A stretch of 34,363 nt of DNA from Betaproteobacteria bacterium (GTDB lineage: Bacteria; Pseudomonadota; Gammaproteobacteria; Burkholderiales; Rhodocyclaceae), in NCBI GenBank assembly GCA_028065725.1, contig JAPTVL010000118.1:1-34363 (forward strand). The letters run 5' to 3'. Below are positions 2,173 through 34,363 of this stretch, piece after piece (within the stretch, counting starts at the first letter, position 1; each line of letters starts with the position of its first letter). The position numbers and the translations under genes were made by a program. The notes below the pieces were generated by a model. The model had not been told where the DNA came from, did no database searches, and worked only from the letters and a program-made list of their open reading frames with translations.

Positions 2173-4551
2173 TTATCCGCGCAACGACGCATTGAAGTCC
2201 CGGCTGGCGACTGCCAGCAGTTCGGCGATCACCGCCTCCACTTCCGCATCCTCGAGAGTACGTTGAGTATCTTGCATAACTATACGGAAGGCAAGGCTCT
2301 TTTCGCTTTCCGCAAGGCCTTTTCCCTGATACACATCGAATAATGCAACATCGCGCACGATGGCCGGCGCGGCGAGCTTCAATGCTGCCAGCAGGGGGGC
2401 CAGCGGCTGGCTGTGGGGCACCACCAGGGCGAGGTCGCGCGTCACCGCCGGGAAACGGGAAACCTCGGAATACACGGGGAACGGCGTCGCCAGCAGGGCT
2501 GCCAGTTCAAGTTCGAACACCACCGGAGCGGTGCCGAGCTCGTATTTTTGCACCCAGCGCGGATGCAGTTCGCCAATCACGCCCACGATTCGCCCATCGA
2601 GGCTGACGCTGGCACAACGTCCGGGATGCAGAGCCGGATGCTCGGCCTTGATGAATTCCAGGCGGCGCGGGGCAAACAGGGCTTCGACGTCGGCCTTGAC
2701 GGCGTAGAAGTCCACCCGGGTGGCCGCCGCACCCCATTGCTCGGGAAGCGCCGAACCTGCTGCCAGGCCGGCCAGGCGCAGCGGCTGGTCGAATCCAGCG
2801 ACCGGACCCGCAGCGGCGTCGCGCTTGAAGCAGCGCCCCAGTTCGAAAATGCGCACCCGTTCCGTCTGCCGCTTGCGGTTGGCAACCAGGGTGCCGACCA
2901 GACCGCCGATCAGCGTCGAGCGCATGACGCCCATCTGGCTGGCAATCGGGTTGGCGAGCACGACAGCGGCGGCATTGCCGGCGAAATCGGTCTCCCACGC
3001 TGCCTCGACGAAGCTGTAGGTCACGACTTCGTGATAATCCCGTTCCGCCACCAGGCGACGCAAATTCATCGGCGTCCGGCGCTGCTCGGTGGCCGGCATC
3101 ATGGCCATCTGCGCCACCGGCGGCCGCGACGGAATGTTGTCGTAACCGTAGATGCGCGCGATTTCCTCGATCAAGTCTTCTTCGATCTCGATGTCGAAGC
3201 GGAAGGACGGCGGCGTGACCAGGAAATCATCGCCCAGCCGCTCGACGCCGAGACCCAGGCCCCTCAGCATGCCTTCGATGCGCTCGGCGGCAAGCTGGAT
3301 GCCCAGCACTTTCACGGCGCGCGCCGTGCGCAGGCGCACCGCATTGCGCGCCGGCAGATGCGCGGCCGAAACCGCTTCCACCACCGGGCCGGGCTGTCCG
3401 CCGCAGGTGTCGACGATCAGTTGCGTCGCGCGCTCGATGGCCTTGCGCTGCAGTTCGAAATCGACGCCGCGCTCGTAGCGGTGCGAAGCGTCGGAGCTGA
3501 AGCCCAGCGCACGGGCCTTGCCGGCGATTGCGGAAGGCGGGAAAAAGGCGCTTTCGAGGAACAGGTCCTTGGTCTGCTCGCCGATGCCGGAATGCTCGCC
3601 GCCCATGACGCCGGCCATCGCCAGCGGCTTTTCGTCGTCGGCGATCAGTGCGGTGTCGGCCGATGGCGTTACGGTCTGTTCGTTCAGCAGCAGCAATTTT
3701 TCGCCGACTTTGGGCAGGCGCACGTGGATCGCACCGGAAAGTTCGGCATCGTCGAAGGCGTGCAGCGGCTGGCCGAGTTCGAGCATCACGTAGTTGGTGA
3801 CGTCGACCAGGAAAGAGATGGCGCGAATGCCGCTGCGTTCGATGCGCCGCTTCATCCATTCCGGGGTCGAGGCATTCGCGTTGACGCCGCGAATGATGCG
3901 GCCGCAGTAGCGTGAGCAGAACGCGGGAGCATCGAGCACCACCTGCCGCGTGTCGGTCACGGCGGCGACGACCGGCTTGATCTCGGGCGCCAGCAGCGGC
4001 GCACCGGTCAGTGCCGAAAGTTCGCGCGCGATGCCGAGCAGCGACAGGCAGTCGGCCCGGTTGGGCGTCAGTTTGAGGGTGATCAGTTGGTCGTCGAGAT
4101 CGAAATGGCGGCGGATGTCCTCGCCTACCGTCGCATCGGCGGCCAGCGGCAGCAGTCCGCCGTGATCCTCGGAGAGCCCCAGCTCGCGCGCCGAGCAGAG
4201 CATGCCGAAGCTCTCGATGCCGCGCACCTTGGCCCGCTTGATTTCGATGCCCGGCAGCTTGGCGCCGACCCTTGCGCACGGCACCTTCATGCCGGCAGCA
4301 ACATTCGGCGCGCCGCAGACGATCTGCAAAGGAGCGGATTCGCCGACATTGACCGAGCAGAGCTTGAGCTTGTCGGCATCGGGGTGCTTCTCGACGCTCA
4401 GCACCTCGGCCACGACGACACCGGAAAAGTCGGCGCCGGCGGCACGGCGTTCCTCGACTTCGAGGCCGGCCATGGTCAGCAGGTGGCACAGCTCTTCAGT
4501 GGAGAGCGCGGGATTGCAGAGGCTGCGCAGCCAGGATTCGGAAAATTGCAT
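2173..4551 (-). CDS. pheT: Phenylalanyl-tRNA synthetase beta chain
   Basis: PheT and PheS form the alpha2-beta2 enzyme that charges tRNA-Phe. At 792 residues this is the normal bacterial length. Domains in order: the N-terminal region [17 protein letters not shown]; the EMAP-like tRNA-binding domain about 39-150 ([20 protein letters not shown]); the B3/B4 editing domain about 210-380 ([16 protein letters not shown]); the B5 domain about 400-470; the catalytic-like core about 480-680; and the C-terminal FDX-ACB anticodon-binding domain about 695-790 ([14 protein letters not shown] to VIAELLA). It starts three bases after the pheS stop, so the two subunits are translationally linked. Confidence 0.97.
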
Positions 4552-6917: not shown

Positions 6918-8834
6918 TCAGACCGTTGCGCTTCTGCTGCACTGTTCATGCAACAGACGCTCGATCAAGGCCTGGGGGGACATCTGCCCGAGATCCTGAT
7001 TGCCGCGGGCACGTAAAGCGACCAATCCGGCGGCCTTTTCCTTGTCGCCCACGACAACGATATAAGGCCGCTTCAACAAGCTATGTTCACGTATTTTATA
7101 GTTTATTTTCTCGCCGCGCAAATCGCTCTCGACCCGCAAACCGGCCTCGCGCAGCATTTTCGCCACATTTTCGGCGTATTCGGTCTGTGCTTCGGAGATA
7201 TTCATGACCACCACCTGTACCGGCGCCAGCCAGAGCGGGAAGGCGCCGGCATGGTTTTCCACCAGAATGCCGATGAAGCGCTCCAGCGAACCGAGGATCG
7301 CGCGATGCAGCATCACCGGGGTATGGCGACTGTTGTCTTCGCCGACATACTCGGCGCCAAGGCGCCCGGGCATCGAAAAATCGACCTGTACCGTGCCGCA
7401 CTGCCAGGAGCGGCCGATGGCATCCTTGATATGGAATTCGATCTTGGGCCCGTAGAAGGCGCCCTCGCCGGGAAGTTCCTCCCAGGAAAGGCCGCTTGCC
7501 GTCAGGCCTGCGCGCAACGCGTTTTCGGCCTTGTCCCAGAGGATGTCCTCACCGACCCTGCCCTCGGGACGCAGCGCCAGCTTGACCGCGACCTCGTGGA
7601 AACCGAAATCGGCATAGACCTTGCGCACCAGGTCGTTGAAGGCCGTGACCTCGACCTGGATCTGGTCCTCGGTGCAGAAAATGTGGCCGTCGTCCTGGGT
7701 GAAGCCGCGCACACGCATCACGCCATGCAGCGCTCCCGAGGGTTCGTTGCGATGGCAGGAACCGAATTCGCCGTAACGCAGCGGCAGATCGCGGTAGGAA
7801 CGCACGTCGGTATTGAAAATCTGCACGTGGCCCGGGCAGTTCATCGGCTTCACCGCGTAATCGCGGTTTTCGGAGGACGTGGTGAACATGTTGTGGCTGT
7901 AATGTTCCCAGTGGCCGGAACGTTCCCACAAGCTGCGGTCCAGTATCTGCGGGCAGCGCACTTCCTGGTAGCCGTTCTCGCGATAGATGCGGCGCATGTA
8001 TTGCTCCACTTCCTGCCACACCGTCCAGCCGTGCGGGTGCCAGAACACCAGGCCGGGTGCTTCTTCCTGCAGGTGAAACAGGTCGAGCTGGCGGCCGAGC
8101 TTGCGGTGGTCGCGCCGCTCGGCCTCCTCCAGCATGTGCAGATAGGCCTCCAGCTCATCCTTCTTGGCCCAGGCCGTGCCGTAGATGCGCTGCAACTGCT
8201 CGTTCTTCTGGTCGCCGCGCCAGTAGGCACCAGCCACCTTCATCAGCTTGAACACCTTGAGCCGGGAGGTGGAGGGCACGTGCGGCCCGCGGCAGAGATC
8301 GATGAAATCGCCTTCGCGGTACAAGGACACGTCCTCGCCCTGCGGAATCGCGGCGATCAGTTCGGCCTTGTAGTGCTCGCCGATCGACTTGAAGAATTCC
8401 ACCGCCTTGTCGCGCGCCCAGACTTCGCGGGTGACCGGAAAGTCCTTCTTCGCCAGTTCGGCCATGCGTTTCTCGATGGCTTCGAGGTCTTCCGGGGTGA
8501 ACGGCCGCTTGTAGGCGAAGTCGTAGTAGAAGCCGTTGTCGATCACCGGGCCGATGGTCACCTGCGCCTCGGGAAACAGTTCCTTGACGGCATAGGCCAG
8601 CAGGTGCGAGGTCGAATGGCGAATGATGTCGAGGCCGTCGGTATCCTTTTCGGTGACGATCGCCAGCTGCGCATCGCGCTCGATCAGGTAGGAGGTATCG
8701 ACCAGCGCCCCATCGACGCGACCGGCGAGCGCGGCCTTGGCCAGACCAGCGCCAATCGACGCCGCGACTTCCGCCACCGTCAGCGGCTGAGGATATTCGC
8801 GCTTCGATCCATCGGGCAGGGTGATCACCGGCAT
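6918..8834 (-). CDS. thrS: Threonyl-tRNA synthetase
   Basis: ThrRS charges tRNA-Thr. The start at 8834 ([15 protein letters not shown]) follows GGAG at a 9-base distance and gives 638 residues, normal for the family. Domains: TGS about 1-62; the N2 editing domain about 63-225 with zinc-site motif HSTSH at 73-77 and the later [12 protein letters not shown]; the class II catalytic core about 240-535 with [22 protein letters not shown] and motif 3 [17 protein letters not shown]; and the anticodon-binding domain about 540-638. It is the first gene of the thrS-infC-rpmI-rplT-pheST-ihfA cluster, and its leader contains a long hairpin likely to regulate it. Confidence 0.97.
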
Positions 8835-28435: not shown

Positions 28436-28456
28436 GCGATTAAAGCCCTAGATGCG

Positions 28457-28484
28457 ACAAAGGCGAACTCCTGTTCGCCTTTGT
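28457..28484 (-). terminator. Strong stem-loop upstream of ppiD
   Basis: ACAAAGGCGAAC (28457-28468) pairs perfectly with GTTCGCCTTTGT (28473-28484) around a four-base loop, 12 base pairs. Read on the minus strand it directly follows the tRNA-3'-like sequence, as a terminator of a tRNA gene would. The T run after it is short (TTTGTC). Confidence 0.65.
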
Positions 28485-28486
28485 TC

Positions 28487-28508
28487 GGTGGTGCTGACGG
28501 GGTCGAAC
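28487..28508 (-). other. tRNA 3'-end-like sequence, candidate island attachment site
   Basis: On the minus strand this reads GTTCGACCCCGTCAGCACC followed by ACC, like the T-loop, T-stem and acceptor end of a tRNA. The bases before it (TTAAA) do not pair as a T-stem, so no tRNA is present. A fragment beginning in the T-loop and followed by a terminator is what an element integrating into a tRNA leaves at its far end. The intact tRNA would lie beyond the window's right edge. The donor tRNA could not be identified. Confidence 0.4.
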
Positions 28509-28558
28509 TTTAACCCGCGAGACGCCCCAGCCCTAAAAGGAACAAATTTGTACTTGGC

Positions 28559-28578
28559 AGTTACTGTCAAAGTTACTG
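28559..28578. repeat. Short direct repeat at the left side of the island
   Basis: AGTTACTG occurs at 28559-28566 and again at 28571-28578, twelve bases apart (about one helical turn). Both lie within AT-rich DNA between the attachment-like site and the alpA-like gene. It may be a binding site for the AlpA-like protein or a recombination arm site. No function is shown. Confidence 0.35.
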
Positions 28579-28590
28579 ACATTAATTGCC

Positions 28591-28851
28591 CTAAAGGCCA
28601 ATTATATCTTTGTCACGCTGGGCTTGCCCAACTCTCGCCGCGCATTGTATCAAGTTCCGAATATCCTCAACTCGCCACGCGGTGATGCGTTCCCCTAGCG
28701 TTCGTACAGGCTGAGGATAGCGTCCCGATCTGACACCTGCCCACCACGTTGATTTGCTGACCGGGATTAGAGCCGGAATCGGTGGACTAGCCTTACGGTT
28801 GCCAATGATTTGTGGGAGTCGAAGGTAGCCAGTTTCGGGAAGCGTATCCAT
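28591..28851 (-). CDS. AlpA-family phage regulatory / excisionase-like protein
   Basis: The 86-residue protein contains the AlpA (MerR-like DNA-binding) pattern: GYLRLPQIIG near residue 8, then PALIPVSKSTWWAGVRSGRY, where P-V-S-K-S-T-W-W is the recognition helix, then PQPVRTLGERITAWRVEDIR. AlpA-type proteins activate integrase genes or act as excisionases in phages and satellites. A GGAG site lies upstream of the ATG at 28851. It is the last gene of a minus-strand run with the ssDNA-binding and replication genes. No integrase is found in the window. Confidence 0.85.
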   Translation of the reverse strand: MDTLPETGYLRLPQIIGNRKASPPIPALIPVSKSTWWAGVRSGRYPQPVRTLGERITAWRVEDIRNLIQCAARVGQAQRDKDIIGL

Positions 28852-28870
28852 AGCTAGATGCTCCAGACCA

Positions 28871-29182
28871 TCACACAGGGGCTGCAGGCTTCATCGGAGC
28901 TGCCGCTTTGGGGCGGATATCTACGATGATTTGCTGCGTCTTACTGCCATTGGTCACGGTATCCCACTCGACTTCGAATTCACCGGGCAAGGAAAACGTG
29001 GCGAGTCGGTCATACACCCCGGAATTGCCAGCGCTGAAATCCATACTGCAATGACCACGCCGAGTGCCGTTTCGGTCATCCATCTTGGTTTCGATATAGA
29101 CCGTGGTGGAATCGAATTGCTTGCCTTCGATATCGCCCTTGAACTTCTTCATACCGGTGACGCGTTCTACTGATTTATGCAT
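28871..29182 (-). CDS. Probable inovirus-type single-strand DNA-binding protein
   Basis: The 103-residue protein starts at 29182 with AGGAG seven bases upstream. It is predicted beta-rich: VTGMKKFKGDIEGKQFDSTT, VYIETKMDD, then FSLPGEFEVEWDTVTNGSKT and QQIIVDIRPK, with a Pro/Ala tail. Size, OB-fold-like strand order and the T-N-G-K/S-T segment recall the small ssDNA-binding proteins of filamentous phages (gene V/RstB type). It sits just downstream of a rolling-circle Rep, as in those phages. The family assignment is by resemblance and memory, not by search. It might be an unrelated small element protein. Confidence 0.6.
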   Translation of the reverse strand: MHKSVERVTGMKKFKGDIEGKQFDSTTVYIETKMDDRNGTRRGHCSMDFSAGNSGVYDRLATFSLPGEFEVEWDTVTNGSKTQQIIVDIRPKAAAPMKPAAPV

Positions 29183-29275
29183 GATGTTTCTCCTAACAAG
29201 TGGATTGGGATGAATACCCTTGAGCCGGTGACCATCCCGAATCACCGAGGGAAAGAGGAAGAGGAAGCAGAGCCA

Positions 29276-29704
29276 TCACACACGCTCCAATTGATCGTTG
29301 AACCAAACGAACTTCACGCCGAACAATTCGCAGGAACCAACGCAGACCAAGGAGTCCCAGGCCTCTTGAAAGGCTTTCTTGAGGGCTTTCCTCAACTGGG
29401 TGGCGAATTCATCCGGGGGCAAATGGGAAAGCGTGCTGGCGAACTCATGCCGCTCGGGCATGGCCTTGATAGCCCGCCGCAGGGCTTCACGCATTGGCCC
29501 CATAGGGCGATCCGGTTTCGACTGGGAGAACCGCACCAGCCCGTCCTGATCCCCGCAGTATTGGGAGACGATGTAACGGGACAGACGGCGGGCATCCTTG
29601 GTACTGCTGCCGATCCGCTTGACGTTCACATGAAAGGCCCCGTGAATGTCTTTCCAGTTCTCTTGCAGCCAGGAGAACTCGATATAGAAGGAACGCCCTC
29701 TCAT
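29276..29704 (-). CDS. Rolling-circle replication protein, C-terminal half (split Rep)
   Basis: The 142-residue ORF starts at 29704 with an ATG overlapping the stop of the preceding ORF (ATGA). It continues the replication protein fold where the other ends: FYIEFSWLQENWKDIHGAFH, VNVKRIG, then DARRLSRYIVSQYCGDQDG, in which Tyr44 and Tyr49 are candidates for the DNA-nicking tyrosine. The remainder is a helical tail (MREALRRAIKAMPERHEFAS) ending VGSCELFGVKFVWFNDQLER. In relatives I recognise, these two halves form one chain. Here it is in the -1 frame relative to the upstream part, either through a one-base indel or as a two-gene arrangement coupled by the ATGA overlap. Confidence 0.7.
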   Translation of the reverse strand: MRGRSFYIEFSWLQENWKDIHGAFHVNVKRIGSSTKDARRLSRYIVSQYCGDQDGLVRFSQSKPDRPMGPMREALRRAIKAMPERHEFASTLSHLPPDEFATQLRKALKKAFQEAWDSLVCVGSCELFGVKFVWFNDQLERV

Positions 29705-30174
29705 TGCTCGGGTTCCTTCCAGGCCAGGATCATATGCAGGACGCCATGACCTTCGCGGGTATCGACGCAAATGTATTGCACGCTTTCATAGCCCAATTCA
29801 CGGGCCATGCGCTTACGCAGGATTTGGAAGTCCCTCCGCAACTGGGCGGCAGGGCTGGATGGGGAGGATGTCAGGGTGACCCACAGGCATTGATAGCCAT
29901 GAGCCATCCAATAATTCAGGCGATCAAGAACGGCACGCCGAGTGACCCACTGCTTCCGCGACCATGGCGGACGGCCCTCTGGTTTTGGCACGTTTCCGCA
30001 CCCTATATCAAGAAAAGGGGCGGCTGCGCCGCCGGGTGCGGGAGCGCCTTGCGGTGCATCCCCCACCCGCTCGCCGCAGCCGCCGCTCACCGATTCAGGC
30101 GCAACAAAGGGCGCAGCAGAAGGCTGTTGCGCCGTGGAAACTGGAATAGATGGGTCATAGCTGTTCATAGCCAT
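29701..30174 (-). CDS. Rolling-circle replication protein, N-terminal half (inovirus Gp2-like)
   Basis: The 157-residue ORF has a Pro/Ala/Gly-rich N-terminus (about 1-68) of low complexity. A HUH-Rep-like core follows: QCLWVTLTSS (about 95-104) fits motif I, and QYICVDTREGHGVLHMILAW (about 133-152) occupies the place of the metal-binding motif II. Only one histidine of the usual His-hydrophobic-His pair is obvious (HMI), with another at GHG three residues before. It stops at TGA 29701-29703 and the fold continues in the overlapping ORF. The start is uncertain: ATG at 30174 and 30168 both lack a good ribosome site. Members of this group start rolling-circle replication of filamentous phages and related elements. 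Confidence 0.7.
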   Translation of the reverse strand: MAMNSYDPSIPVSTAQQPSAAPFVAPESVSGGCGERVGDAPQGAPAPGGAAAPFLDIGCGNVPKPEGRPPWSRKQWVTRRAVLDRLNYWMAHGYQCLWVTLTSSPSSPAAQLRRDFQILRKRMARELGYESVQYICVDTREGHGVLHMILAWKEPEQ

Positions 30175-30184
30175 GACTATAGCT

Positions 30185-30239
30185 GGGTACAGGCTACCCC
30201 GCTAGGTATATCGTCCCCACTACTGGGGATAGTGTACCC
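30185..30239. repeat. Nested inverted repeats upstream of the split rep gene
   Basis: GGGTA/TACCC (30185-30199) forms a small hairpin. Next to it TCCCCA-CTAC-TGGGGA (30214-30229) is a perfect six-base palindrome, flanked by GGTA (30205) and TACC (30235). GGGTAC at 30185 and GTACCC at 30234 mirror each other across the whole unit. It lies between the rep start and the upstream unknown gene. It could be the double-strand origin nicked by Rep, or the operator of rep. Confidence 0.5.
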
Positions 30240-30242
30240 TTT

Positions 30243-30626
30243 TTACAACGCTAGCTCTCGCCGCCGTTCCCGCAGCTCGTCGTCCTTGATCTCGCCATTG
30301 ACGCCTTTCCAGAAATTACCGAGCCTCGTGACGATCTCATAGGCGAGGGATTTATCCGAAAATTCTGTGGTCGGCTCAAACTCATCCCGTATGTTGATGT
30401 TCCCAAGGATTTCTTCGTATTTGCGAATTGTGCGTTTGTTGTGGATCAGGACAATGACTTTCCAGCCCACCAATCGACCCAGCATGTACATGCCAATAGC
30501 GGCTTCAAGATCATCGAACTGACCTTCGAAGTTGACGGCGATATGGTCTAGGCGGGTGACAAGCTCCTGTGCTTCTTGGGGCTTGACGGTAGGGGCTTGC
30601 CGGGGTGGCTTCTTGGCTTTGGGCAC
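30243..30626 (-). CDS. Unknown protein, first gene of the minus-strand replication module
   Basis: I do not recognise this 127-residue protein. The start is taken as GTG at 30626 (VPKAKKPPRQAPTVKPQEAQ), because GGAGG lies eight bases upstream; the longer frame would begin with TTG inside that site. A basic proline-rich N-terminus is followed by a probable compact domain (about 20-110) with LVTRLDHIAVNFEGQFDDLE, AAIGMYMLGRLVGWKVIVLI and a charged C-terminal helix (KDDELRERRRELAL). There are no cysteines, no signal peptide, and no transmembrane prediction beyond a short hydrophobic strand (WKVIVLI). It is on the rep strand and shares the palindrome-rich DNA on both sides, so it is part of the mobile element rather than of the RT system. 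Confidence 0.6.
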   Translation of the reverse strand: MPKAKKPPRQAPTVKPQEAQELVTRLDHIAVNFEGQFDDLEAAIGMYMLGRLVGWKVIVLIHNKRTIRKYEEILGNINIRDEFEPTTEFSDKSLAYEIVTRLGNFWKGVNGEIKDDELRERRRELAL

Positions 30627-30644
30627 GGTGGCTACCTCCAAGTG

Positions 30645-30675
30645 GGTCTAGTGGGTAACGATAACCCATTAGACC
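30645..30675. repeat. Hairpin GGTCTA-TGGGT / ACCCA-TAGACC
   Basis: A 12-base-pair stem with one G-T pair and a seven-base loop (AACGATA). It lies 19 bases upstream of the GTG start of the unknown minus-strand gene, where an operator or an origin could sit. Half-site GTGGGTAACG recurs inverted at 30710-30719. Confidence 0.6.
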
Positions 30676-30715
30676 GCTTTAAGCAATTCTGCTCTGTGCC
30701 TGGTTACCGCGTTAC

Positions 30716-30765
30716 CCACCGCGCCGCCGCCTCATGCCATATAGGGGCAGTCGGCGGCGCCGTGG
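30716..30765. repeat. GC-rich hairpin with CCAC / GTGG outer arms
   Basis: CCAC-C-GCGCCGCCG (30716-30729) pairs with CGGCGGCGC-C-GTGG (30752-30765): 13 of 14 positions, with a single C-C mismatch. The 22-base loop can fold again through TGCC/GGCA. This is the most stable structure in the island. Candidate roles are an inovirus replication origin or packaging signal, a terminator-like barrier between modules, or part of a structured RNA. Confidence 0.65.
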
Positions 30766-30959
30766 ATAACGCACCACCCAATAACTAGCGCAAGTGCTCT
30801 TACCGATTTGGCATTTTAGACATCAACTGAAACCAAAATGAGCTACAAAGCCCCAAGTGCACCTTACAAGCGGTTGCCGATCAAACCAGATCGTCATAAA
30901 CTGGCCCGAGATAGCCGCAATTATCCACTTCCACGCTTTCAGACTCAAAGGCGAGGTAT

Positions 30960-32231
30960 ATGTACGACCAGTCATATAACGCTTTCACTCTCTCCTCGCG
31001 TTCGATTCTAAAAAAAGGCGACTTCAGGAAAATTCCTAAGACCTTTAGAGACGCGTATCGAAAAACAATTGTGGATGATGCAACGAAATCTGCCCATTCT
31101 ATTTTCGATGGCAAAAATCCAATCCATGCTTTCCACTTAAAGAAAAAGTCAGCCTACAAAATACGGAGTCTCAAGGACGATTTGGTAGTACGAAAACTCG
31201 CGCTTAACCTAAAACGCCTTACTAGGCTTCGCACTCCAGGCAGATCATTCGTAATATCCAATCTGCGACACTTCCTTGAGGAAGGAATTCCGTATCGCGT
31301 CTACAGATTAGACGTAAAGAGTTTCTACGAGTCGTTCTTGATCGAAGATATAAAAGCAGCGGTCTCAGCCCTACGCTCCCTAACACCGCTGAGCAAGCGG
31401 CATCTGACCGCGCTGCTAGATCACTATGCAGCTATCGGGGGGAAAGGACTTCCCCGCGGCATGGGAATCAGTGCTGTTCTTTCAAATTGGCTTATGTCCA
31501 ATTTCGACTCTGAAATGAACGCCCACCCTGCCGTATACTTCTACGGAAGATATGTTGACGACATTACGATAGTCACAAATCGAACAGAAGATGAAGCTGC
31601 ATTCTTGAGCAAAATTGGAGAACAGCTTCCCACTGGCCTCCGCTTGAATGAGAAGAAAACCAGCGTCCACGCTTGCGATAGAAAGCTGACTCCCGTCGCG
31701 CCTCCCGCTAAGTCGCCGATCCCCAGATTCAACCTCAGCTATCTGGGCTATCAATTCTCAGTTCTTGATCCCGTCAGAAGCAACAAAACCAATCGCTCCG
31801 AGTTTCGACTGGTTCGGGTCGAAATTGCTCCCGAGAAAATACAGAAAATCAAACAAAGGATAGTGCGCTCGTTCATCGCGTTTAAAAGTAATCGCGACGA
31901 CTCTCTCCTCGTAGACCGAATTAAATTCCTAACCTCCAACTTCAGCGTATACGACAAAAATTCTGGAAAACGTCAGCTATCAGGAATCTTCTACAGCTAC
32001 CCGCTTCTCTCTGAGATGTCAGAAAGTCTCGCGGAATTGGATCAGTTCCTTAAGAACGCGGTGCTCTCAAAACGAGGACGGCTTTTTTCAGCAACAGCAC
32101 CTTTGCTATCCAGCACAGTTAAACGGCGCCTTCTGTCGCTAAGCTTCACACACGGACATATGACCCGGCACTTTATGAACTTCTCGCCAAGAAAAATACA
32201 TGACATTCAGGAGTGCTGGATCTATGAATAA
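30960..32231 (+). CDS. drt3a: Defence-associated reverse transcriptase, DRT type 3 first subunit (UG3-like)
   Basis: The 423-residue protein is a reverse transcriptase of the unknown-group (UG) type. Motif A is YRLDVKSFYESF (Asp118), motif B region GKGLPRGMGISAVLSNWLMS (161-180), motif C YGRYVDD (195-201, catalytic YVDD), motif D LRLNEKKT (227-234). A basic N-terminal extension (about 1-110) and a C-terminal part (about 245-423) without a recognised nuclease domain complete it. AAAGG eight bases upstream supports the ATG at 30960. It overlaps a second RT gene by eight bases. Two adjacent RTs of these sizes are the hallmark of DRT type 3, which protects against phages with a non-coding RNA. 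GC content is visibly lower than in the core genes, a sign of transfer. The subtype is assigned from architecture, not by search. Confidence 0.88.
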   Translation: MYDQSYNAFTLSSRSILKKGDFRKIPKTFRDAYRKTIVDDATKSAHSIFDGKNPIHAFHLKKKSAYKIRSLKDDLVVRKLALNLKRLTRLRTPGRSFVISNLRHFLEEGIPYRVYRLDVKSFYESFLIEDIKAAVSALRSLTPLSKRHLTALLDHYAAIGGKGLPRGMGISAVLSNWLMSNFDSEMNAHPAVYFYGRYVDDITIVTNRTEDEAAFLSKIGEQLPTGLRLNEKKTSVHACDRKLTPVAPPAKSPIPRFNLSYLGYQFSVLDPVRSNKTNRSEFRLVRVEIAPEKIQKIKQRIVRSFIAFKSNRDDSLLVDRIKFLTSNFSVYDKNSGKRQLSGIFYSYPLLSEMSESLAELDQFLKNAVLSKRGRLFSATAPLLSSTVKRRLLSLSFTHGHMTRHFMNFSPRKIHDIQECWIYE

Positions 32232-34203
32232 AGGAATGAAAGCAAACCGCATAAAGAAAAACGATTACAGCCGCGTACTAGTCACTGAAACGCTTCCTTA
32301 TGAGACACCAATAATATTTTCCAATGACGGCCTATACGAACGAGTTGTCGGTATCGAAACGTCAGATCAGATTCAAAAAACACTGATTCGAGCTTTGGTT
32401 TTTGGAGAAAACGAACCGGAAAACATCCATTCTTGTATTCCTTACCTTTATAAAATTCGTAAGAACTCGACTGAGTTTAGACGGCTCGGGTTACTGCATC
32501 CCCGCTCGCAGTGGAAGGTCAAAGAATTTTATGAGAAGTATGAAGATCTGATTCTCTATCATTGCTCGCAAAGTGCTGCATCAATCAGGTCACCAGAGAA
32601 GGTTGCAGGAAGTTTCTTCTTCAAAAGCGTCAATGAGAACTTAAACCAGTACAAATCTGGATCCGTCTCGCTTCTATCACTAGATCAAGTCACAAAGCAT
32701 AGCCCATCTTTCTTCTCTTACCGAGGATTCGATAGGCTCTACAAATTTTTCGAATCACGTGACTACTACCTGCTTGAAAAGCGATTTGCATTTTCTTTAA
32801 CGCTCGATGTTTCCAAATGCTTTGACAGCATCTACACGCACACACTGTCGTGGGCTGTAAAAGACAAAGAGTTCACAAAGACGAACGTCGGCAATAAGGC
32901 AACATTTGCTCAAGAGTTTGATGCTGTGATGATGCACTCTAATCACAATGAGACAAATGGAATCGTTATCGGTCCCGAAGTAAGCCGAATATTTGCCGAG
33001 ATATTGTTTCAAGAAATTGACTGCCGCGTAATCCTACGGCTTTCAAGCAAGCCAAATTACATATTTGGGCAGGACTATCTTTTCCGACGCTATGTGGACG
33101 ACGTTTTTATATTTGCGAAATCTGAAGAGGCTGCCAGAACAGTCTACAAAATTTATGCTGATGTCTTGTCATCATTCAATCTTCATGCCAACTCAGCAAA
33201 GAGCATCGGCATGGCCCGGCCCTTTGTTACCAATAAATCCAGGCTGATTCATGCGGCCAACCTTGAAGTAAATAGGTTCATCGAGAAATTTCTTGACGCT
33301 AACGCTGACGGAACTGTGCTGTCGCCAAAATTAATTCATTCTAGATGGCGATTGACTAGAAGCTTCATCGAGGCCATCAAGACGATTTGCTCGCACAACC
33401 AAGTTAACTATGATGAAGTCGCTTCATATCTAATTGCGGTCCTAACTGAGCGCGTCAAGAAAATTGTATCTATTAGTACGATAAGTACCCCAGATGCAGC
33501 TGAGCTGCTATACAGAGATTCACTTCTTGTTTTACTCGATGTGCTCTATTTTTTATATGCAGTTTCGCCATCCGTAAGCGCCTCGTACAAACTCTGCACA
33601 TCTGTCATCTTGATAATTCGATTCACTAGGCAGCATTTGCCGAGACTTGAAAATACGATCGCTCACGCGATATATGAGTTAACACAAATGCTGCTTTCGG
33701 AGTATGACGCAAGCAATCCAGACGGCATAGATGGACTCTTACCGTTAGAGGTTCTTAATGTGATACTTGCGGCAAAAGAGCTCGGCCCGAACTACCTCAT
33801 ACCTGAAGACACAGTAAGTACTCTTTTTGCTGATGGTCCAGCCTACTCATATTTCAGCATAGTGTCCTGTTTGTTCTACATTCAGGATGAGCCAGGCTAT
33901 GATCGCCTTAGAAACTCTATGCTCGCCGCAGCAGAAGAGAAACTTTCTGACCTTAAAGACATAAGAATGAACAGCGAGAAGGCGTATCTACTACTCGACT
34001 TGCTGACATGCCCCTACATCCCGGATAAACGAAAGAAGGTCTGGATAAGAAACGCGTTCGCTGCGCTAGCTATCCAGAAGCCAACTAACGCTCAACTTGC
34101 TCCCTTCCTTCTTGTCGCGAACAATTCGCACATTCAAATCAATTGGAAGGAAGTTGACCTGCTAAGTTCACTGGAAAAGAAAGAGTTGAAACAAGCATAT
34201 TGA
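32224..34203 (+). CDS. drt3b: Defence-associated reverse transcriptase, DRT type 3 second subunit (UG8-like)
   Basis: The start at 32224 (MNKGMKANRIKKNDYSRVLV) has AGGAG (32209-32213) ten bases upstream and overlaps drt3a by eight bases, giving 659 residues. RT motifs: A FSLTLDVSKCFDSIYTH (Asp195, preceded by Leu-Thr), B NGIVIGPEVSRIFAEILFQE (245-264), C FRRYVDDVFIF (YVDD 290-293), D FNLHANSAKS (318-327). The N-terminal region of about 185 residues is longer than in retron RTs. The C-terminal 320 residues are predicted helical, with no known enzymatic motif that I can see. In DRT3 the two RTs work together; as I recall, one copies a repeat from the RNA and the other makes the complementary strand. 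AT-rich codon use marks it as acquired. Confidence 0.88.
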   Translation: MNKGMKANRIKKNDYSRVLVTETLPYETPIIFSNDGLYERVVGIETSDQIQKTLIRALVFGENEPENIHSCIPYLYKIRKNSTEFRRLGLLHPRSQWKVKEFYEKYEDLILYHCSQSAASIRSPEKVAGSFFFKSVNENLNQYKSGSVSLLSLDQVTKHSPSFFSYRGFDRLYKFFESRDYYLLEKRFAFSLTLDVSKCFDSIYTHTLSWAVKDKEFTKTNVGNKATFAQEFDAVMMHSNHNETNGIVIGPEVSRIFAEILFQEIDCRVILRLSSKPNYIFGQDYLFRRYVDDVFIFAKSEEAARTVYKIYADVLSSFNLHANSAKSIGMARPFVTNKSRLIHAANLEVNRFIEKFLDANADGTVLSPKLIHSRWRLTRSFIEAIKTICSHNQVNYDEVASYLIAVLTERVKKIVSISTISTPDAAELLYRDSLLVLLDVLYFLYAVSPSVSASYKLCTSVILIIRFTRQHLPRLENTIAHAIYELTQMLLSEYDASNPDGIDGLLPLEVLNVILAAKELGPNYLIPEDTVSTLFADGPAYSYFSIVSCLFYIQDEPGYDRLRNSMLAAAEEKLSDLKDIRMNSEKAYLLLDLLTCPYIPDKRKKVWIRNAFAALAIQKPTNAQLAPFLLVANNSHIQINWKEVDLLSSLEKKELKQAY

Positions 34204-34267
34204 TAGGATAACCTCTAAGGCGAAAGGTGGATGAATCGTAAGCGTCGCCCCAAGGCCGCATTGACAA

Positions 34268-34363
34268 TCAGAACTTGATTTCGCTGAGGAGGGCGTTGGT
34301 GTCGGAGGGATTGAAGGCAGTCGGGTCGAACTGTCCGCCGCACCAATCGAGCATATCCTGATG
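34268..34363 (-). CDS. pRiA4b ORF-3-like protein, C-terminal end
   Basis: The window's right edge cuts a minus-strand gene. The last 31 residues read HQDMLDWCGGQFDPTAFNPS, then DTNALLSEIKF, and stop at 34268-34270. The M-L-x-W-x-G-G-x-F-D-P-x-A-F pattern is the typical C-terminus of the plasmid pRiA4b ORF-3 family, found in many mobile and chromosomal loci, with unknown function. It converges on drt3b with 64 bases between them, so there is little room for an RNA gene downstream of the RTs. Confidence 0.75.
   Translation of the reverse strand, partial: HQDMLDWCGGQFDPTAFNPSDTNALLSEIKF

Follow-up and report, generated by a model that had tools for sequence, protein, structure and literature searches.

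A 34,363-nucleotide (nt) stretch of betaproteobacterial DNA (assembly GCA_028065725.1, contig JAPTVL010000118.1; hereafter the window) carries near its end two overlapping reverse transcriptase (RT) genes, drt3a and drt3b, and raises the question of whether they still belong to a complete DRT3 defence system. DRT3 and its mechanism are already characterised in the literature (PMC13174585). Besides the two RTs, DRT3 comprises a non-coding RNA (ncRNA) encoded 3' of drt3b, whose ACACAC serves as the template of Drt3a. The window very probably holds a DRT3 locus whose downstream template ncRNA gene was interrupted by the insertion of an IS66-family element. It is probably a disrupted member of this known system and not a complete DRT3 system.

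According to PMC13174585, Drt3a makes poly-(dTdG) on the ACACAC of the ncRNA, while Drt3b synthesizes poly-(dCdA) from its own C-terminal tyrosine, using side chains as the template. The latter synthesis needs no ncRNA in vitro. The two strands anneal into duplex DNA, which leads to abortive infection when a phage blocks RecBCD. In the E. coli system (EcoDRT3), mutation of the ncRNA template abolishes defence, and a review describes all three components as essential (PMC13314766).

The reverse transcriptase pair

The two genes are located as follows.
30960 to 32231, plus strand: drt3a, a UG3 reverse transcriptase of 423 amino acids (PADLOC, NCBIfam, PDB 9z6y chain A)
32224 to 34203, plus strand: drt3b, a UG8 reverse transcriptase of 659 amino acids (PADLOC, NCBIfam, PDB 9z6y chain H and 26cz)

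Both open reading frames (ORFs) are intact, drt3a comes first, and the genes have 8 bases in common. The length of drt3b is counted from the ATG at 32224; an alternative ATG at 32200 in the ORF list gives 667 amino acids. Each protein contains one RVT_1 domain (40.3 and 38.8 bits; Pfam cut-off 29.6), and a Pfam scan of both detected no other family above the cut-off. The YVDD motif occupies residues 198–201 of Drt3a and 290–293 of Drt3b, and motif A has its aspartate at D118 of Drt3a and at D195 of Drt3b, the latter also placed by alignment. The guanine-plus-cytosine (GC) content is 0.465 for drt3a and 0.430 for drt3b, compared with 0.628 for positions 1–28435 of the window. The DNA before drt3a (28436–30959) has a GC content of 0.548, and the drt3 locus thus sits in a lower-GC stretch. 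An initial annotation made from the DNA alone had described two overlapping RT genes of these sizes, each with a YVDD centre and a motif A aspartate, free of integrase and intron domains and lower in GC than the core genome, and all of this was recovered here. Its extent, 30960–34203, encloses the RT genes correctly and leaves out the informative stretch 34204–34363, in which the start of the ncRNA and the end of the IS66-family element lie.

Assignment to DRT3 was based on the margins between profile scores. Drt3a reached 435.8 bits with the PADLOC Drt3a model and 79.2 bits with the best model of another family; the corresponding values for Drt3b were 728.7 and 136.9 bits. PADLOC scores of this size exclude a chance match. 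Both proteins also passed the NCBIfam equivalogs, Drt3a with 368.6 bits for NF041747 (cut-off 200) and Drt3b with 673.4 bits for NF041748 (cut-off 350). Membership in another UG group or among group II intron RTs was ruled out, as the other PADLOC and NCBIfam models were far weaker. The naming of the pair as UG3 and UG8 of DRT3 in the initial annotation, which had proposed profile searches as a check, is therefore right at the protein level, and judged by protein sequence the pair is DRT3. Nor do the homologs always occur alone: a drt3a match adjoins drt3b in 58 of 64 relative loci. Genome contigs supplied 54 of the loci gathered and viral contigs 11, and 64 of them entered the analysis; L051 was kept out of the counts of ncRNA position, ACACAC and residues. 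The loci with no adjacent drt3a are L011, L033, L052, L053, L054 and L059, and L011, L054 and L059 start at or near drt3b. A search of viral contigs with Drt3a alone found no relative.

The solved structure closest in sequence to Drt3a is PDB 9z6y chain A (272.2 bits over residues 1–422). Drt3b is closest to 9z6y chain H, with 534.7 bits, followed by 26cz, a SUMO-tagged RNA-directed DNA polymerase, with 318.9 bits. We take 9z6y and 26cz to be tied to the E. coli DRT3 work, their DRT3 identity coming from the PDB names or from the match. A hexameric complex counts among the features of DRT3. An AlphaFold2 monomer model of the window Drt3b (predicted local distance difference test, pLDDT, 75.5; predicted template modelling score, pTM, 0.75; residues 1–25 and 654–659 below 50) was compared with a structure library extending to 2026-04-08, which returned DRT6, UG15/DRT4 and AbiK as the best matches and did not return DRT3.

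We take 26cz as the EcoDRT3b of PMC13174585, because 775 minus 667 residues gives an offset of 108 with which the identities at 71, 182, 241, 278 and 666 fit. In the alignment to 26cz, EcoDRT3b residues E22, R71, D182, F187, R241, Y276, V277, D278 and Y666 correspond to E27, R86, D195, F200, R255, Y290, V291, D292 and Y659 of the window protein, and all are identical. PMC13174585 assigns E22, R71 and R241 to nucleotide choice, D182 and D278 to catalysis, and Y666 to priming. By analogy, E27, R86 and R255 are predicted to form the gate of the window Drt3b, D195 and D292 its catalytic pair, and the C-terminal Y659 its priming residue. All nine window residues are invariant in the 39 sequences of alignment A1, which comprises the window and 38 sequences hand-picked from the best 120 of 1859 matches. 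The residues were also counted in the proteins of 56 of the 64 loci; those of L011, L022, L025, L030, L044, L052, L053 and L054, truncated or out of frame as extracted, were excluded. In this set R86, D195, F200, R255, Y290, D292 and Y659 are again invariant, the position of E27 holds E in 53 proteins and D in 3, and that of V291 holds V in 54. As far as sequence can tell, the RT genes are intact and their working residues conserved. The locus resembles E. coli DRT3, as described in PMC13174585, in having two RTs of similar size in the same order, and it shares the six Drt3b residues to which roles were assigned.

The ncRNA gene downstream of drt3b

The ncRNA of the relatives shows what is expected downstream of drt3b. 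ACACAC occurs within 200 nt 3' of drt3b on the coding strand in 59 of 63 relatives and on the other strand in 1 of 63; the count covers loci with at least 200 nt downstream and leaves out L022, which has 15 nt. In 33 of the 59, including the closest relatives of the window, it lies 119–184 nt past the drt3b stop. The DRT3 loci of Burkholderiales and their kin, L001–L008 and L014, encode Drt3b proteins 54–59% identical to that of the window. Like the window, they have an ncRNA 5' element directly past the drt3b stop; unlike it, they carry an ncRNA of about 180–200 nt, with ACACAC 164–184 nt past the stop. Alignments were made of the ncRNAs of hand-picked close relatives (A2, 15 sequences; A3, 14, with L028 left out). 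In the 15-sequence alignment, the 5' element comes right after the drt3b stop and the template lies near the 3' end. The alignment also shows a closing stem; over its length, 24 pairs are predicted, and in 16 of these both partners differ together in one sequence or more.

In the window, the stretch after drt3b is occupied as follows.
34207 to 34229, plus strand: 5' end remnant of the DRT3 ncRNA gene, GATAACCTCTAAGGCGAAAGGTG, with a -10-like box (own reading) and the start of the closing stem
34230 to 34237, no strand: GATGAATC, putative left copy of an 8-base-pair (bp) target-site duplication, directly before the IS66 terminus
34238 to 34363, no strand: end of an IS66-family element, starting with the terminal repeat GTAAGCGTCGCC and running past the window (DNA match to plasmid element ends)
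34268 to 34363, minus strand: pRiA4b ORF-3 passenger gene, C-terminal 31 codons (protein match, weak PF07929)

The remnant begins 3 nt past the drt3b stop, in the same place as in the relatives. A weight matrix with 23 columns, derived from the 5' element in 15 relatives without use of the window, ranked position 34207 first among 68,682 positions on both strands, with 15.5 bits. The leave-one-out scores of the 15 relatives range from 9.2 to 25.8. This score and this position imply that the window once carried an ordinary ncRNA gene. Because the 5' element is kept, the ancestor of the locus probably had an ordinary ncRNA, in the same downstream place as in E. coli DRT3. A promoter scan reported nothing at 34207–34229, and the yield of promoter and terminator scanning did not exceed that from shuffled sequence.

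The remainder of the ncRNA was not found. Within the window, the ncRNA gene keeps only its start before the IS66 terminus, and no intact ncRNA with ACACAC was detected 3' of drt3b. Only 160 nt of the window follow drt3b (34204–34363). A covariance model, R1, built from 14 relatives, recognised no ncRNA there, its best match, on the wrong strand, having 1.8 bits. When likewise shortened to 160 nt, relatives scored 65 bits (L003), 25.8 bits (L011) and 17.1 bits (L016); L003 and L011 belong to the training set, and L016 lies outside it. An ncRNA that merely runs past the window end was ruled out by this comparison, since R1 detected all three shortened relatives and not the window. R1 was run on the window and on 39 of the 64 loci, the 14 training loci being matched by construction. 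Over the whole window with filters off, its best match had 11.3 bits and an expectation value (E) of 0.024, a stem with no ncRNA body. ACACAC occurs three times in the window, compared with 8.2 expected by chance, at 32148 and 32840 in the RT genes and at 29278 in another ORF. CACACACTCAG has two matches with two mismatches, compared with 6.5 expected. An ncRNA elsewhere in the window was ruled out by these counts and the whole-window R1 scan. An Rfam search of the window returned two tRNAs only.

The relatives also show variation in their own right. A second ncRNA layout is found in 25 of the 59 ACACAC-bearing relatives (L031–L050, L052–L054, L064 and L065), in which the first ACACAC lies 29–57 nt past the drt3b stop and Drt3b is 28–33% identical to that of the window; L027 stands alone at 76 nt. 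The relatives that lack ACACAC in the 200 nt are L017, L019, L025 and L029. In the Janthinobacterium DRT3 locus L029 (6984–7170), AACACAAT occurs near the ACACAC site of the second layout and may be a template variant or a decayed template. L025 (3849–5972) is another disrupted DRT3: its Drt3b frame closes at 243 codons, the next frame resembles a transposase by eye, and its Drt3a looks truncated as well. In Snodgrassella, an open drt3b with no ACACAC in the 320 nt downstream was seen in 3 of 14 genomes (L017, L019 and L069). The presence of drt3a was confirmed for L017 and L019; L017 is from the same genome as L068, and L019 is from the same stretch as L070. Conserved pieces are kept downstream of drt3b in L017, L019 and L069, and a divergent ncRNA is possible there.

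The IS66-family terminus

The sequence changes at 34238, where GTAAGCG forms the first bases of an IS66 terminus, followed by the end of a pRiA4b ORF-3 gene. A GTAAGCG terminus and 8-bp duplications are typical of IS66. Across all 31 residues, the protein fragment shares 58.1% identity with a pRiA4b ORF-3 family protein encoded on a plasmid (E 2e-5), and its match to the C-terminus of PF07929 is weak (15.3 bits, below the cut-off of 26.6). Among the best 10 of 18 records, positions 34232–34351 at most are 71–76% identical in DNA to element ends on Burkholderia and Mycetohabitans plasmids, and the alignments start at 34232–34238, where the ncRNA remnant stops. Five IS66 element ends align from their first base, with 34238–34363 included. 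An antisense overlap between an intact ncRNA and the pRiA4b gene was ruled out by this alignment.

The plasmid copies show what the rest of such an element contains. In L071 (Burkholderia anthina) and L073 (Mycetohabitans rhizoxinica), an IS66 transposase, TnpB and a further transposase lie directly beside the pRiA4b gene, all in one orientation. L071 is a complete copy, bounded by GTAAGCG at 4007 and CGCTTAC at 7088, with the 8-bp duplication TGTGAAAC on both flanks. The window resembles L071 and L073, IS66 elements with a pRiA4b passenger, in its terminal repeat GTAAGCGTC, and the pRiA4b stop lies 30 nt from the terminus in the window and in L071–L073. It differs from them in holding only the first 126 nt of the element, the transposase genes lying beyond the window.

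The initial annotation had implied a working system with an ncRNA. This part of it found no support: the ncRNA gene appears to be cut by the IS66-family terminus 34 nt past the drt3b stop, and neither R1 nor the ACACAC search found an ncRNA of the DRT3 family elsewhere in the window. Unlike E. coli DRT3, whose ncRNA gene is not cut in this way, the window lacks a downstream ACACAC, and its host is betaproteobacterial. Among the matches listed in a search of titles and abstract openings in open-licence PubMed Central, there was no report of an insertion-disrupted DRT3 ncRNA.

Consequences of the probable insertion and other explanations

An IS66-family element would have transposed into the ncRNA gene just past its first bases. 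With nothing but the start of the ncRNA left before the element, Drt3a, with its predicted RNA-templated synthesis of poly-(dTdG), should be left with no template; no duplex would be made, and the locus should not protect. The template part of the ncRNA, if it is still present, would lie about 3 kilobases off beyond the element, severed from the start and from the closing-stem strand. Drt3b might still make poly-(dCdA), a strand whose published synthesis needs no ncRNA.

Several points weigh against an interrupted ncRNA gene. The lead of 34207 in the matrix scan is small: the runner-up, at 31012 on the opposite strand, reaches 14.0 bits. For the 5' element, the scores of 18 more distant relatives run from -6.5 to 7.2. 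At E up to 1, R1 picked up 9 of the 25 loci that had not been used to train it, and it is reliable for close relatives only. The window shows one terminus, and the right-hand copy of the duplication and the far end of the element lie beyond it. The exact far-end motif was not at the expected place in L072–L074, so that L071 is the only one of four plasmid copies with it. In L072 and L074, the annotation places no IS66 transposase right next to the match, and IS21 genes lie near it; L074 has an IS66 transposase about 3.4 kilobases off, and the gene tables of the plasmids have gaps. With no more than 126 nt of the element visible, an assembly fault at the contig end is possible, and a second copy of the ncRNA may lie elsewhere in the genome. 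In addition, Snodgrassella L017 and L019 have both RT genes and no nearby ACACAC, and its absence need not mean a dead system.

A complete DRT3 could still operate in most cells if the IS66 terminus arose by faulty assembly or belongs to a minority variant, or if another site in the genome provides the ncRNA. We regard this as unlikely, although it has some weight. Both RTs are intact, the window ends 126 nt inside the element, and contigs presumably often end at repeats. In addition, a 99% identical Drt3b is present on another metagenome contig, known without its downstream DNA. Against this, the change falls exactly at the first base of the element, GTAAGCG, next to a plausible 8-bp target, as in real transposition, and the unfiltered R1 scan of the window found no full ncRNA. 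An RT pair that works with no canonical ACACAC ncRNA, through Drt3b alone or a divergent RNA, would also make the insertion harmless. The ncRNA-independent poly-(dCdA) synthesis of the published Drt3b and the three Snodgrassella loci (L017 and L019 with both RTs, L069 with an open drt3b) would favour it. However, the loss of EcoDRT3 defence upon template mutation opposes it, as does the ordinary ncRNA 5' element kept in the window, where nothing marking a replacement was seen, and we consider such independence very improbable. Interruption of an ordinary ncRNA gene by the IS66-family element remains the preferred explanation. A further suggestion is that selection favoured the insertion as a way, perhaps a reversible one, to disarm a toxic immune system. 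The cell would then lose the template of Drt3a and keep both RTs intact, and Drt3b would act as a stand-alone protein-primed maker of poly-(dCdA) with a role of its own. This is a slim prospect, and both selection for the insertion and its reversibility are speculative.

Host and neighbourhood

The host appears closest to Sulfuritalea-like betaproteobacteria, judging from one gene. Its threonyl-tRNA synthetase has a best match of 96% identity, and at least 7 of the best 120 matches are from Sulfuritalea sp., at 90–94%. At E 1e-60, a relative of Drt3b was found in 2 of 395 genomes sampled from the family of the L003 genome; both, the genomes of L003 and L041, had already contributed loci to the set of relatives.

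A peptidylprolyl isomerase gene, PpiD-like by our own reading and below the NCBIfam cut-off, precedes the low-GC stretch. A minus-strand cluster (28591–30641) then lies before drt3a. It encodes an AlpA-like regulator (12.5 bits, below cut-off) and a protein of the phage family phrog_4994 (83 bits), and it contains two overlapping frames, perhaps one gene with a frameshift. The upstream overlapping frame (29701–30174) bears a weak resemblance to replication proteins of phages or plasmids (14.3 bits, below cut-off). A search of 28436–34363 against phage DNA gave no match, and a search for flanking repeats found none that was convincing.

Significance

An annotation that relied only on protein models (PADLOC and NCBIfam, as used here) would probably label this locus DRT3, though its RNA part appears to be cut. 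The finding suggests that the integrity of the ncRNA should be checked before a DRT locus is counted as active. The window locus is a candidate natural ncRNA-minus DRT3, and it could serve to test whether a cell lacking the template of Drt3a tolerates Drt3b alone, or whether the enzyme is active there.

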